Shown piece after piece: positions 715 through 4,340 of a stretch of DNA of 43,059 bases (within the stretch, counting starts at the first letter, position 1; every line of letters starts with the position of its first letter). The notes under the pieces were generated by a model that was given only the letters and a program-made list of their open reading frames with translations, had not been told where the DNA came from and made no database searches. The stretch lies in the IMG/VR virus record IMGVR_UViG_3300032116_000430, positions 1 to 43,059 of that record; one strand, given 5' to 3'. The translations under genes and the position numbers were made by a program. The stretch comes from a virus.

Positions 715-731
715 CTTAACAGTTAGTAACA
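715..731. repeat. boundary element copy 1 (stop-codon 17-mer)
   Basis: CTTAACAGTTAGTAACA, read on the minus strand, supplies the helicase stop codon. It matches three copies in the right arm (41160, 41499, 42369) at 15 or more of 17 positions. All four span the end of a minus-strand gene. Confidence 0.7.
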
Positions 732-3062
732 TTGGCCTGATGGCACCTCTCCGCAATGACCGTACGGCAGGCCAAGGCAGCGCTCGACACGCCGCCGTTG
801 CTCGCCCGTAAGCCCCTCGGGACTATTGGCGAATGGCCATAGGATCGCAGGATTAAAATGCTTCGCTTCAACAAGGTACAGATTCTTCTTTGCGGCTTTA
901 ACGCGCTTCTGTATTCTTTGCTCATATAAATCTTCGATTGATAATTCCCTCATTTCCTTTCGATCGCCTTGGGCCACTAAAGCGCGTTCCGGTTTCTCTG
1001 GCTTCTCGACCACTTCCTTGTCTACATTAAGATGCAGTCTAGCCTTCTTAAACTTAACTTTGCCTTCTAGTGTCCAATCAATCGGCTCGTGCGGCAATGG
1101 CAGATTGCGCCAGCAGTTGCCATGATCAATGATCAGCGCCACCTTGTCTGGATTGGATGGATCAGTGCGCAATACCCTACCGATAAGTTGCTTCCAGAGG
1201 CGCAAAGATCGCGTTGGCCTGATAAGCTGCAGGCATGTTGCTGCCGGCAGGTCTAGCCCTTCATCGATCAATGCAACGGAAACGATAACTTTCAGATCGC
1301 CGGCAGTAAAGCGCTCAAACGCATAATCTCGATCCCGGTCTGATGTCGTGCCGATAACAACTTCAGCGCTGATGCCATGTGCCTTGTATTCCTCCGCAAT
1401 CCTGTTTGCGTGTTCAACGCTAATCGTTACCGTAATGGTAGGATGTAGTTTTGGATTGAAATGCAGTAAGTCACGCAGAAAGTCACCCTGTACCTTCACG
1501 ATGCGTTCTTCGATTTCTTCTTTTTTGTAATCTCCGCCGCGTGTTGCGACGCCTTCAGTATCAACTACTGCATCATCGCCACCAAACATCTTATACTTGC
1601 ACAATGAACCATCATCCATCAGTTGTTTAGGCTGCGGACCAAGGATTAGTTTCGTGATGCCAAACTTCCCAAGGCCAGCACCAGTCGGTGTGATTGGCGT
1701 TGCGCTAGCGCCGGCAAAGAATGCAGGCTGCATTGCAACAATGATTTCCTGATATGTTCTCGCTTGAATATGATGACAGTTATGAACAAGAACACCGTTG
1801 GCGAAATAACAGTGATCCTGCTCTACCTCTAAATTGTAGACAAAACCATCCGGACACAGCTCATGGGATCTTCTATCACTTGTTCGTTCGAGAATCTCAA
1901 TACTTTCCAGCCAAGTGACTGCAGAAAAGCTGTTTTCTTTTTGTCTTGCTCCTGTCGCTCTGTCGCGCAATGCGAGCGGCCATCTATCTCTACGGCAATC
2001 TTGAGGTTCGTATGGCCAACGTCTATTTTGTAGTGAGTCGGGTACTTCGCTCCCGGCAATGGAGCACAGCCAGTTTTGACAATAACCTGCATTTCCCAGC
2101 CCAATAATTGAGCCATCAACGCTTCCGCCGCTGTCGCCGGCCTGCCATTCCCGCCGCGAATGCGCGGCTGATGGCCAATCTCTTTCAAGCGTTGTGATAC
2201 CTTTTGCCTGACTTCTTCTCGTTTCATTGGATTGCAGGCAGTCATTCTGGCGGAAGCGTGCTTGCGGTTGGTTGCCGCCATCGTAATAGAGCTGTTCCAT
2301 GCTCGGTAACGAGAGGAGCATTCTTTGCTGCAATAAGCCCATCCCCTCTTCCGTGCCTGCTCCCTGCATCCCTTGGTGTCTTGGGCCGGCGCTCCGCACA
2401 TGGCGCAAAAGCTGAGAAAAGGCATCGGTCGTGGGTGTGGCGGTCAGTTGCATCATAGCCATGCCTGGTTCAAGAGCGATGGCTGGGCGCCAGTCGTCAT
2501 CGGCCCAGACCGGATGGCCGGCGGTGCAGGTGATCTCGGTTCCTGCGGTCGTGCGAAGTCGCACCATGAGCGGTGGCGCTGGATTGCGATGCAAGCCTGT
2601 CACCTTGCGCTTTTGCAGTCGCCGGCCATCCCATGCGGTCACGCAATCGCCAACACAAACATCCTCGATAGGGCGCCCATCTACAAGAGTCCCCGCAGGG
2701 AAGCATTCATCCAATAGTAGCACCCTACCACGAAACGTGGATACCGCTTCCCGTCTACGCGCAAGTGTTGGCATCATCGTAACCATGATGCCACGATCTT
2801 CCGTCATACGTTTAGCAGTATAAAATCCTACCGGCTCATTACAGTGCTTGCGGCATGATGCAGCGAGCTGCTTAATAATTTCGTTGCGATGCGCGGCAAG
2901 GATAACTTGATACCCCCATTCACGATAGAGCCTTGTGATCTCTGCTAGTATCACAGTTTTGCCGCTGCCAGTGGGCGACACCAGGCACGGTGCGCCCCCT
3001 TCGTTCATGTGCTCAACAGTTGCGCACACTAAAGGGGGCTGGTAGTCTCTAAGGGTGAACAT
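723..3062 (-). CDS. superfamily 2 DNA helicase interrupted by an intein
   Basis: This 779-residue product should splice to a helicase of about 470 residues. Walker A is PTGSGKT at residues 30-36. Walker B is split: LLLDE ends at residue 119 and CHH resumes at 429, rebuilding DECH after removal of residues 120-428. Motif III follows (GASATP), and motif VI is QLIGRVLR. The fold resembles UvsW/RecG-like phage helicases that remodel forks and D-loops, fitting the nearby recombination genes. The start overlaps the stop of the preceding small gene (TAATG), suggesting translational coupling. A host-type repair helicase is possible, but its phage setting favours a replication/recombination role. The intein and its hidden endonuclease are described separately. 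Confidence 0.93.
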   Translation of the reverse strand: MFTLRDYQPPLVCATVEHMNEGGAPCLVSPTGSGKTVILAEITRLYREWGYQVILAAHRNEIIKQLAASCRKHCNEPVGFYTAKRMTEDRGIMVTMMPTLARRREAVSTFRGRVLLLDECFPAGTLVDGRPIEDVCVGDCVTAWDGRRLQKRKVTGLHRNPAPPLMVRLRTTAGTEITCTAGHPVWADDDWRPAIALEPGMAMMQLTATPTTDAFSQLLRHVRSAGPRHQGMQGAGTEEGMGLLQQRMLLSLPSMEQLYYDGGNQPQARFRQNDCLQSNETRRSQAKGITTLERDWPSAAHSRREWQAGDSGGSVDGSIIGLGNAGYCQNWLCSIAGSEVPDSLQNRRWPYEPQDCRRDRWPLALRDRATGARQKENSFSAVTWLESIEILERTSDRRSHELCPDGFVYNLEVEQDHCYFANGVLVHNCHHIQARTYQEIIVAMQPAFFAGASATPITPTGAGLGKFGITKLILGPQPKQLMDDGSLCKYKMFGGDDAVVDTEGVATRGGDYKKEEIEERIVKVQGDFLRDLLHFNPKLHPTITVTISVEHANRIAEEYKAHGISAEVVIGTTSDRDRDYAFERFTAGDLKVIVSVALIDEGLDLPAATCLQLIRPTRSLRLWKQLIGRVLRTDPSNPDKVALIIDHGNCWRNLPLPHEPIDWTLEGKVKFKKARLHLNVDKEVVEKPEKPERALVAQGDRKEMRELSIEDLYEQRIQKRVKAAKKNLYLVEAKHFNPAILWPFANSPEGLTGEQRRRVERCLGLPYGHCGEVPSGQCY
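1779..2705 (-). other. intein (309 residues) in the helicase Walker B motif
   Basis: The splicing signals are all present. Block A begins with Cys1 (CFPAGTLVDG). Block B contains TAGHPVW with its TxxH core. Block F reads VYNLEVEQDHCYFANG. Block G ends LVHN, followed by the +1 Cys at 1776..1778. Insertion falls inside DE/CH, the ATPase active site, so the helicase is dead until splicing occurs. Unusually, the middle of this frame (about intein residues 95-260) is Arg/Gln/Ser-rich and resembles no LAGLIDADG or in-frame HNH domain. That stretch is instead an endonuclease gene read in the +1 frame. The segment near WLESIEILE may already belong to the C-terminal splicing half. Confidence 0.93.
1829..2425 (-). 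CDS. Zn-ribbon / Vsr-like (EDxHD-type) homing endonuclease nested inside the intein, +1 frame
   Basis: A 198-residue protein begins at ATG 2425 and ends with TAG at 1829..1831, entirely inside the intein but one base out of its frame. Residues 7-36 form a Zn ribbon (CAMC ... CSKEC). Residues 65-90 look like a NUMOD-type DNA-binding helix (NPMKREEVRQKVSQ). Residues 91-182 carry a Vsr/PD-(D/E)XK-like nuclease core: RGGNG, YPTHYKIDVG, KIAVEIDGRSH, QDKKK and LGWKVLRF. Candidate catalytic residues are D135, E146, D148 and H152. This matches EDxHD homing endonucleases known from phage split-intein loci. No Shine-Dalgarno is seen; the leader is C/A-rich like those of many genes here. In-frame stops just upstream fix the start. 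It would cut intein-less helicase alleles and spread the element. Confidence 0.85.
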   Translation of the reverse strand: MPFLSFCAMCGAPAQDTKGCREQARKRGWAYCSKECSSRYRAWNSSITMAATNRKHASARMTACNPMKREEVRQKVSQRLKEIGHQPRIRGGNGRPATAAEALMAQLLGWEMQVIVKTGCAPLPGAKYPTHYKIDVGHTNLKIAVEIDGRSHCATERQEQDKKKTAFLQSLGWKVLRFSNEQVIEDPMSCVRMVLSTI

Positions 3063-3253
3063 TATTTACGTCTAATAGAAGTGACCACACCGATAGCAAT
3101 AAGCGCTCCATTTTGCCAAGCCAGCGAGGCTGCCTGCTTGCGGTCGGTTTCTGTGTTATGCGGGATAAACTTGCCTTCATTTTCCCACCAAGCCTCAAAG
3201 CGGTCCCTAATTTCGTCGGTGCCAGGATGCAGCCTGTCGCTTTTGTTGCTCAT
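3062..3253 (-). CDS. small hypothetical phage protein
   Basis: This 63-residue protein contains FEAWWENEG and a later AASLAWQNGA, a pattern seen in many small phage proteins of unknown function. The start chosen is the ATG at 3253 because it overlaps the stop of the preceding gene (ATGA). An in-frame extension back to 3301 would run deep into that gene. The stop overlaps the helicase start (TAATG). The three genes from 3543 to 723 are therefore tightly coupled in translation and probably one operon. No membrane segment or metal motif is visible. Confidence 0.7.
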   Translation of the reverse strand: MSNKSDRLHPGTDEIRDRFEAWWENEGKFIPHNTETDRKQAASLAWQNGALIAIGVVTSIRRK

Positions 3254-3543
3254 TGCACTTCCCTCCCATCGTACGTTGGCTTGTTTCTGCCAAGCATCCA
3301 CTTAACATAGCCAGGCGCTGTCTGCAAGTCCATTTTTTGTGTGGGAAAATAGAACAACTCTTGAAGCTCTGGCTCTGTAAGAGTCATTTCATTGCCCGCG
3401 TCTGTGATAACGGTCCATGCGGCGGAACGCCTTAGTGTTAGTATAACCGGCTCAACAATCACTGCGTTGCCACACTTTCTGCCGTCTCTAGTGCAAAGCT
3501 GGGAGCCAATCTCCCAGCCGTAGGATCTTGTAAGTTTACTCAT
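3250..3543 (-). CDS. hypothetical protein
   Basis: This 97-residue basic-to-neutral protein opens MSKLTRSYGWEIGSQLCTRD. It has two cysteines near residues 17 and 24 (LCTRDGRKCG) and a C-terminal stretch WMLGRNKPTYDGREVQ. I do not recognise the family; the pattern suggests a small beta-rich protein. It starts at ATG 3543 with a weak purine-rich leader (GTGAAGAA) and ends in an ATGA overlap with the next gene. Upstream in-frame codons contain no better start. Confidence 0.7.
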   Translation of the reverse strand: MSKLTRSYGWEIGSQLCTRDGRKCGNAVIVEPVILTLRRSAAWTVITDAGNEMTLTEPELQELFYFPTQKMDLQTAPGYVKWMLGRNKPTYDGREVQ

Positions 3544-3626
3544 TTCTTCACTACCTGCACTTTCCAAGTGCAAGCCTTTTCGGCCATTGTTGCTTTGCCG
3601 TTCTTCAGGTAGTCCGCTTCCAGCTT
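3540..3626 (-). other. out-of-frame coding continuation of the gene at 3605..3895
   Basis: Just as the frame of 3605..3895 reaches its TGA, the alternative minus frame reads KLEADYLKNGKATMAEKACT and onward to a TGA at 3540..3542. That TGA overlaps the next gene's ATG. The composition and tight junction look coding, so the preceding gene may really be about 117 residues, reached by a shift near 3626..3637 (GCCAAAGGCG). A frameshift mutation, a sequencing indel or programmed slippage would all explain it; no classic slippery heptamer is present. Confidence 0.4.
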
Positions 3627-3895
3627 GCGCCTTTGGCAGTAAAATCATCTTTGTAATCATCTTCCACCTTGAAGTAGGTGCCAGTTGATACGCGCTGCAG
3701 GCGTACTTTTTGAAAATTGCCGTCAGAGAACAGAACGTCCATGTCTGTTTTGGCGGGGATGGCGTCACTACCGTAAAGTTCCTCTAATGCTTTTTTGACT
3801 TCGCTTTCTTCGCTTTCGATGGCTTTCTTTTGCTGCTGCAGATACAGCAGCCTGGCGGCAAGTTGTTCTGCGGGATTTGGCGCTGGAGTTTGCAT
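3605..3895 (-). CDS. hypothetical coiled-coil protein, possibly frame-broken
   Basis: This 96-residue frame has an N-terminal helix rich in Gln, Lys and Glu (LLYLQQQKKAIESEESEVKK, about residues 16-35), then a small beta-like domain. The architecture resembles small phage proteins with a coiled coil before a beta sheet, some of which bind nucleases or DNA; the family is not certain. It starts at ATG 3895 behind the leader CCAACCACCAGCC. A GCTACAATT box lies 26 bases upstream. The natural C-terminus may continue in another frame (see 3540..3626). Confidence 0.7.
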   Translation of the reverse strand: MQTPAPNPAEQLAARLLYLQQQKKAIESEESEVKKALEELYGSDAIPAKTDMDVLFSDGNFQKVRLQRVSTGTYFKVEDDYKDDFTAKGASWKRTT

Positions 3896-3921
3896 GGCTG
3901 GTGGTTGGCGGTTGGCTTGTT

Positions 3922-3930
3922 AATTGTAGC
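3922..3930 (-). promoter_or_regulatory. promoter-like box GCTACAATT
   Basis: GCTACAATT on the minus strand lies 26 bases before the ATG at 3895. It is identical to the boxes at 4884..4892 and 9820..9828, and each lies upstream of a gene start. A -35 is not evident. Confidence 0.55.
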
Positions 3931-3941
3931 GCTTGAAAGAC

Positions 3942-4340
3942 TTAGGCGCAAGTTAGCGGAGCCCAAAGCTCCTGCATGTGCTGCCAGCGAGGAGCAAGAT
4001 ACTTAATTACGCTGGCTTCGTCCGCCCTGCACACTTCTACTGTGACTGAACGATAAAGCCCTTTACGTTGGCCCATGAAGAAAAGTGATAGCTTGCCATT
4101 CCTGTAATAATCGTCACCGTTGTAAGCGCATTGACTGTCGCCATCGCCATCTTCTTCTGTCCAGTCCCATCTGAACAATAGATTGTAGTCTTTGTCTGCA
4201 TCTTCTTCTTCGCTTAGGAAGGCAGCAAAAGACTTAAACTCCAAAGTAGTTTTATTACTTGCGGAAGCAAAATAGTTTTCTTCTTCGCAGTAATAGGAAT
4301 GCTTGCATTCCCAGAGGCGCCTGGTTGCTGAGGCTTGCAT
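3942..4340 (-). CDS. hypothetical acidic protein
   Basis: This 132-residue protein has an acidic centre (FLSEEEDADKDY, then WTEEDGDGDSQCAYNGDDYY) and a C-terminus of EASVIKYLAPRWQHMQELW. I do not recognise the family. Very acidic small phage proteins often bind host proteins or mimic DNA, but that is only a possibility here. The ATG at 4340 is chosen because the leader CACCAACCACCAGCC, shared with the neighbours at 3895 and 4857, sits directly before it. A hairpin terminator from the upstream gene precedes it. Confidence 0.7.
   Translation of the reverse strand: MQASATRRLWECKHSYYCEEENYFASASNKTTLEFKSFAAFLSEEEDADKDYNLLFRWDWTEEDGDGDSQCAYNGDDYYRNGKLSLFFMGQRKGLYRSVTVEVCRADEASVIKYLAPRWQHMQELWAPLTCA

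Follow-up and report, generated by a model that had tools for sequence, protein, structure and literature searches.

Among the described systems closest to the present locus, canonical full-length inteins (LAGLIDADG/HNH) have an in-frame endonuclease domain that interrupts the Hint domain between blocks B and F; the locus analyzed here uses this same usual place but differs in that its putative homing endonuclease gene (EN) encodes a separate +1-frame protein (at this locus and in 77/77 nested relatives), while the in-frame product of the same DNA is a predicted disordered linker. Fractured genes, as reported by Dassa et al. (2009, NAR 37:2560; cited in PMC12350094), have an intein split into two halves and, lying between them, a free-standing EDxHD homing endonuclease. 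They share with our locus the combination of an intein with an EDxHD/Vsr-like homing endonuclease outside of the intein protein, as well as a common occurrence in phages; here, however, the helicase open reading frame (723..3062) is uninterrupted, cis splicing is predicted, and EN is out of frame, with its codons partly shared with the Hint domain. Endonuclease ORFs of group I introns and I-Bth0305I (reportedly of the EDxHD family; Taylor 2011) offer another parallel, namely an endonuclease made separately from an ORF within a self-removing element, with a related catalytic fold in the case of I-Bth0305I; the difference is that removal here would occur at the protein level, so that the host frame must stay open through EN. 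In the literature we searched, the closest cases come from phage methylase genes (Arsenault, Gosselin, Gogarten 2025, PMC11855218), where the ShiLan domain and Pacc40 are insertions without a splicing domain in which an HNH endonuclease is “hidden” out of frame. As at our locus, the endonuclease occupies another frame of the insertion, the host frame is open, and annotators missed it. These insertions have an HNH enzyme, no intein splicing domain, no known splicing, a GTG start and no ribosome-binding site, whereas the present family combines a Hint domain with a DUF559 EN, has many hosts and shared codons, and often carries a Shine-Dalgarno (SD) sequence. On the subject of overlapping frames, the same paper (PMC11855218) refers to “Actinobacteriophage Inteins ... 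Non-Canonical Architecture” (Gosselin et al. 2025, bioRxiv 2025.01.02.630785) and to “Non-canonical inteins” (Gorbalenya 1998). Both may already cover overlapping intein frames, and priority is therefore uncertain.

The analyzed window is a stretch of 43,059 nucleotides from a virus (IMG/VR record IMGVR_UViG_3300032116_000430, positions 1 to 43,059). The features of the locus are as follows:

723..3062, minus strand: RadD-like SF2 helicase gene containing the intein (779 codons, no internal stop; ResIII, Helicase_C, phrog_16)
2706..3062, minus strand: N-extein, ending in Walker B (...LLLDE)
723..1778, minus strand: C-extein, first residues Cys-His-His
1779..2705, minus strand: intein of 309 aa, Cys1 to Asn309 (clean removal against the inteinless relative L002; NCBIfam intein_Cterm, 1.2e-6; Hint fold)
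2676..2705, minus strand: block A, CFPAGTLVDG (Cys1 invariant in 49-54 aligned inteins)
2514..2525, minus strand: block B, TAGH (TxxH; T61 and H64 invariant among aligned inteins)
1824..1841, minus strand: block F, VYNLEV, with the EN stop TAG (1829..1831) inside
1779..1796, minus strand: block G, GVLVHN
1926..2426, minus strand: intein-frame linker, intein aa 94-260, over EN (pLDDT about 41-54; open, conservation equal to that of resamples)
1824..1925, shared to the EN stop at 1829, minus strand: segment that encodes structured protein in both frames, namely intein aa 261-294, with block F and the C-terminal Hint strand, and the EN C-terminal core (fold, resampling, mini-inteins)
1829..2425, minus strand: nested putative homing endonuclease gene (EN) of 198 codons, in the +1 frame relative to the intein (DUF559, 6.4e-13; predicted fold)
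2396..2407, minus strand: EN zinc ribbon, first Cys pair, CAMC (C7 and C10 in at least 90% of 55 ENs)
2318..2332, minus strand: EN zinc ribbon, second Cys pair, CSKEC (C32 and C36 in at least 90% of 55 ENs)
2243..2272, minus strand: conserved EN motif TNRKHASARM (alignment of ENs; probable DNA contact, role inferred)
1934..2032, minus strand: EN catalytic region, D135 (YKID), E146-x-D148-G-x-S-H152, D161 (invariant in 55/55 aligned ENs)

Helicase models (phrog_16, ResIII, Helicase_C) match both flanks of the insertion, with RadD as the top NCBIfam model. The insertion point lies between GAA and TGTCATCAT, corresponding to DE/CHH of the Walker B motif (the slash marks the insertion point here and below). 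Joining of the exteins after in silico removal of the intein yields 83% nucleotide identity to L002 over ~1.4 kb with a gapless junction, and 14/14 related viral loci from one homologue search contain the helicase without the insertion. All class 1 intein residues are found in the window (Cys1, TxxH, the C-terminal HN and the +1 Cys). An AlphaFold model of the intein-frame protein shows a confident Hint fold at residues 1-90 and 261-309, the middle (91-260) being disordered, and a Foldseek search with this model returned inteins and Hint relatives as PDB matches, with the RecA and gp41-1 mini-inteins near the top and TM-scores of up to 0.81 (by target); three rows from annotated records were excluded from the predicted-structure alignments. 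By its residues, its clean removal and its fold, the insertion is a class 1 Hint intein, splicing itself being inferred. Elsewhere in the window, positions 1-756 hold a minus-strand ORF (start at 756, running off the window) whose product ends in a long repeat rich in Ala and Asp, with GGC-type repeats at 1-240 as the coding sequence; this ORF matched no family.

EN lies entirely within the intein, its codons beginning at base 2 of the intein codons. The encoded protein matches DUF559 (PF04480) with 49 bits (Pfam gathering cut-off, 20.6), 55/55 tested members of the EN family match it at E≤0.01, and in addition to the catalytic region, residues S151, W173, R177 and N180 are invariant in the alignment. 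Its AlphaFold2 model (pLDDT 92.9) retrieved by Foldseek 3hrl (DUF559; E 4e-3) followed by 3r3p (I-Bth0305I; E 8e-3), with probabilities of 0.99-1.00 and no matches below E 0.001, and the sequence itself matches I-Bth0305I only weakly (E 0.13). A DUF559 gene has been placed in EDxHD (PMC9403480). By these matches EN is a Zn-ribbon/DUF559 nuclease, and by its predicted fold it is likely of the EDxHD/Vsr-like type; its cleavage and homing activities are inferred. Some ENs have a second, N-terminal zinc-ribbon repeat (L019:2842-3588, L020:2830-3597, L024:2830-3597).

An earlier note on this locus, made from the sequence alone, had described this arrangement. The coordinates it assigned to the helicase intein (1779-2705) and to the nuclease ORF (1829..2425) held exactly, as did its description of an intact intein with blocks A, B, F and G dividing Walker B (motifs, excision, fold) and of a nuclease in the +1 frame with its TAG stop within the VYNLEV codons. 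Its reading of the nuclease as Zn-ribbon/Vsr-like and EDxHD-type is supported by the predicted fold, the sequence match to I-Bth0305I remaining weak. Two of the checks it had proposed were run: the HMM search of both frames gave the intein_Cterm and DUF559 matches listed above, and the alignment to an intein-less helicase (L002) was continuous across the junction, as expected for clean excision.

The obvious concern with any overlapping frame is that it may be open by chance. Viral and genome contigs as well as annotated phages supplied the EN relatives, and clustering at 75% identity left 80 ENs, 77 nested and 3 free-standing. To obtain the expected number of stops, each EN was resampled by drawing synonymous codons according to host codon usage; since the nested class is defined by the absence of intein-frame stops, the comparison rests on the free-standing controls and the resamples. 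The 77 nonredundant nested loci contain no intein-frame stops vs. about 10.4 expected for each, while the three free-standing relatives have 29, 31 and 9 stops vs. 27, 26 and 11 expected, and a chance ORF is thus rejected. For the window locus, 9.1 stops are expected and none is seen, P(none) being ~10^-4.9; the estimate of ~1 in 10,000 in the earlier note was too simple. Because the relatives share ancestry, probabilities summed over loci would overstate independence. Nearly all strong EN matches sit in a long open frame at +1, the third sense frame having many stops. The +1 offset is retained in 80/80 further intein-profile matches (many of these being contigs already in the EN search and, hence, not independent), and the EN stop falls inside the intein, 8-62 nt from its end, in 74/74 loci with clear boundaries. 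Homologues joining both frames through an indel, which the same note had named as a refutation, were looked for and found at no locus; no in-frame intein-EN fusion was detected among about 100 loci. The out-of-frame nesting of EN is, therefore, real and conserved in relatives, and the recurrence of the same +1 layout in phage and bacterial genes that are only distantly related, dozens in number, points to a genuine widespread mobile element rather than a single-genome quirk. In 10/10 GenBank phage records that we opened (L017-L026, including Vibrio phages CP-T1, 159E43-1b, 1.088.O and K391, Pseudomonas phage MR14 and Corynebacterium phage phi673), EN is unannotated and the helicase CDS covers everything.

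How one stretch of DNA codes for two proteins was assessed by the divergence at codon positions and by resampling across homologues, corresponding in part to a selection check proposed in the earlier note. Divergence by EN codon position (0.20/0.17/0.38) indicates that, across most of the overlap, EN is the one of the two proteins on which selection acts. Two pairwise extein comparisons (L086/L095 and L061/L085), in which the ORF runs open to the end of the contig, were misframed and do not enter the claims on exteins; EN rates are unaffected. Over EN residues 1 to about 158, the intein-frame conservation is approximately that of EN-synonymous stop-free resamples, whereas over the last ~40 EN codons its excess above the resamples grows from 0.35 to 2.0 BLOSUM units. 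Scored against a profile of EN-less mini-inteins, the intein C-termini are 42 bits above EN-synonymous resamples, and 72/74 of them beat every resample. In this segment, the shared bases spell “GWxVLRFSN...STI” in EN and “WxRVDSVEV...VYNLEV” in the intein, and a conservation that goes well beyond what EN forces implies that the last ~40 codons code for two structured proteins. Only these codons are constrained in both frames, the remaining overlap being merely stop-free in the intein frame. The previously suggested dual-coding stretch thus held in a refined form, with purifying selection on EN and a double constraint confined to its 3' end. The genetic code itself suggests why +1 nesting may be tolerable: a host-frame stop would require an EN codon ending in T before AA, AG or GA, and as the NNT to NNC change is always synonymous, we infer that this offset costs the nuclease no amino acids. 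By the same inference, the other sense frame is less suited, because Met followed by an A-starting codon creates TGA.

Several observations bear on the translation of the nested gene. An ATG is present within 25 codons upstream of the first CxxC in 71/77 nested ENs, and an in-frame stop occurs within 10 codons above the first EN ATG in 45/72 loci. Across the 77 loci, an SD sequence of at least 5 nt precedes EN in 32 cases vs. 7.6 expected at shifted positions, and one of at least 6 nt in 18 vs. 2.1 expected; it is often encoded by the intein codons Asp-Glu-Val (GAGGT). The window EN ATG (2425) itself lacks an SD, a point against the proposed separate translation at this locus. In the family, the ATG position, SD enrichment and upstream stops favor separate initiation of EN over frameshifting, EN translation as such being inferred.

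The 77 nonredundant (<75% identical) nested loci come from phages as well as from MAGs or genomes that span many bacterial phyla; represented among the genome loci are Riflebacteria, Ktedonobacter, Elusimicrobia, Thermodesulfobacteriota, Verrucomicrobia, Ruminococcus, Bacteroides and others. The insertion site is DE/CHH in 57/74 bounded nonredundant loci, and almost all others are at DE/C or DE/S of Walker B. The host genes of L117-L119 look like SNF2-type helicases, a likely assignment inferred from sequence alone. The genes at L120, L121 and L123 (around 3000-4200; Bacteroides, Clostridia and Lachnospiraceae genomes) resemble dnaX clamp-loader genes by sequence (CHML...EEPP), with a nested-EN intein in Walker B. 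The full intein profile recovered only EN-bearing inteins, in part since the query holds the overlap; a profile restricted to the N-terminal part retrieved EN-less mini-inteins. Mini-inteins without EN at the same site (L265, L278, L295; 142-146 aa) keep the dual segment together with a +1-frame remnant of the EN C-terminus, and no EN match was found in two other mini-inteins (L250, L282). Distances of EN, the splicing domain and the exteins correlate about equally (0.45-0.50), not separating co-mobility from shared descent, so that the case for co-mobility as a unit rests on scattered presence instead.

Two free-standing ENs lie beside inteinless helicase genes. At L097 (3355-5623), EN overlaps the start of such a gene (DEAHRA), possibly representing a neighbor-gene stage before nesting; at L090 (4054-5581), a phage contig, it is directly upstream of, and overlaps, the gene start, and a one-base shift interrupts the helicase frame there, precisely at DE/HH, the predicted site of homing. 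This shift could be a post-cleavage repair scar or an assembly error, and we offer both only as possibilities. L090 and L097 are compatible with a route from a neighbor gene to a nested gene, a tentative scheme whose direction is inferred only. No relatives between split intein halves were seen among the loci surveyed, and a plasmid search returned distant DUF559 genes only. The suggestion in the earlier note that the locus may be an ancestor or derivative of fractured genes has not been shown.

Overall, we consider it very likely (with a probability of roughly 0.88) that the window contains a mobile class 1 intein within which a homing endonuclease gene is nested and translated separately; splicing, EN translation, cleavage and homing are inferred. 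In the proposed mechanism, the long frame would yield a precursor of the helicase, and the Hint domain (aa 1-90 and 261-309) would splice itself out of this precursor, with about 170 residues, the intein-frame reading of the EN DNA, looped out as a disordered linker. The nested frame, from its own ATG, would yield a 198-residue Zn-ribbon/DUF559 (EDxHD/Vsr-like) nuclease, which would cut the conserved Walker B DNA (DE/CHH) of inteinless alleles, and repair would then introduce a copy of the entire intein. At the end of EN, the last ~40 codons also specify block F and the C-terminal Hint strand. The computed support for this reading comprises both frames, clean excision, conservation, folds, the 3' double constraint and the family-wide SD enrichment; its core as already formulated in the earlier note (an unsplit intein, a separate out-of-frame nuclease and dual coding) is supported by 77 loci, two predicted folds and resampling. 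A bolder reading, toward which the evidence leans without settling it, is that of a widespread undescribed class with a separately translated +1 EN in a cis-splicing intein and ~40 dual codons, residing at Walker B (DE/C) in P-loop ATPases of phages and bacteria, SF2 helicases and DnaX clamp loaders among them, and decaying to mini-inteins with a nuclease fossil.

Alternative explanations differ in how much they retain of this picture. EN could be a dead relic of an in-frame endonuclease intein, shifted by an indel or a sequencing error, and a single isolated sequence would look alike. However, the same +1 offset with both frames intact recurs in 77 nonredundant loci with no in-frame fusion, the EN codon-position pattern reflects purifying selection, and the catalytic residues are invariant. 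This leaves the relic explanation all but excluded, and for the family it is rejected on the grounds of the shared offset. Removal at the RNA level, i.e., an intron with an ORF for which the open host frame is incidental, would draw on the precedent of group I introns, in which an endonuclease ORF is commonly nested (a point also made in PMC11855218); against it stand the lack of any Rfam match at E≤1 in 1600..3100, the Hint fold with Cys1, TxxH and HN followed by C all present and invariant, and an intein frame that is open in every nested member, so that hardly any room remains for an intron.

Two further rivals accept the intein and the nuclease as such. Programmed ribosomal frameshifting could make the nuclease as a fusion to the N-terminal half of the intein, with no start of its own. 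Certain EN frames do stay open for at least 20 codons upstream of the first ATG, the window EN lacks an SD, and short, possibly +1-slippery runs occur in 32/77 loci (a count without a control). Set against this are the stops shortly above the first ATG in 45/72 loci, the ATG just ahead of the Zn ribbon in 71/77, the about 4-fold to 9-fold SD enrichment and the absence of a common -1 heptamer (7/77), which make frameshifting very unlikely. Finally, the layout may be real with an EN that no longer homes and is kept for phage competition or for helicase control via conditional splicing. The insertion within a catalytic motif of a replication/repair helicase and the persistence of mini-inteins after EN loss would be in line with such a role; nevertheless, the scattered distribution with many inteinless relatives, the common insertion site in different P-loop genes and the strong EN constraint all fit homing, and we regard the non-homing alternative as very improbable as well.

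With the mobile intein and its nested homing endonuclease gene as the preferred reading, the significance of the finding is severalfold. The usual view has been that inteins hold an endonuclease in frame or, when split, as a neighbor gene, and the nested layout represents a third solution. It suggests how inteins may keep a ready-made endonuclease gene without fusion, and it is a possible stepping stone from intein invasion to split “fractured genes”. Current annotation overlooks a nuclease gene in the phage records checked (10/10). The layout is also a natural experiment in gene overlap, with one DNA for a splicing protein and a nuclease, and its C-terminal segment provides a rare clean case for measuring double constraint.
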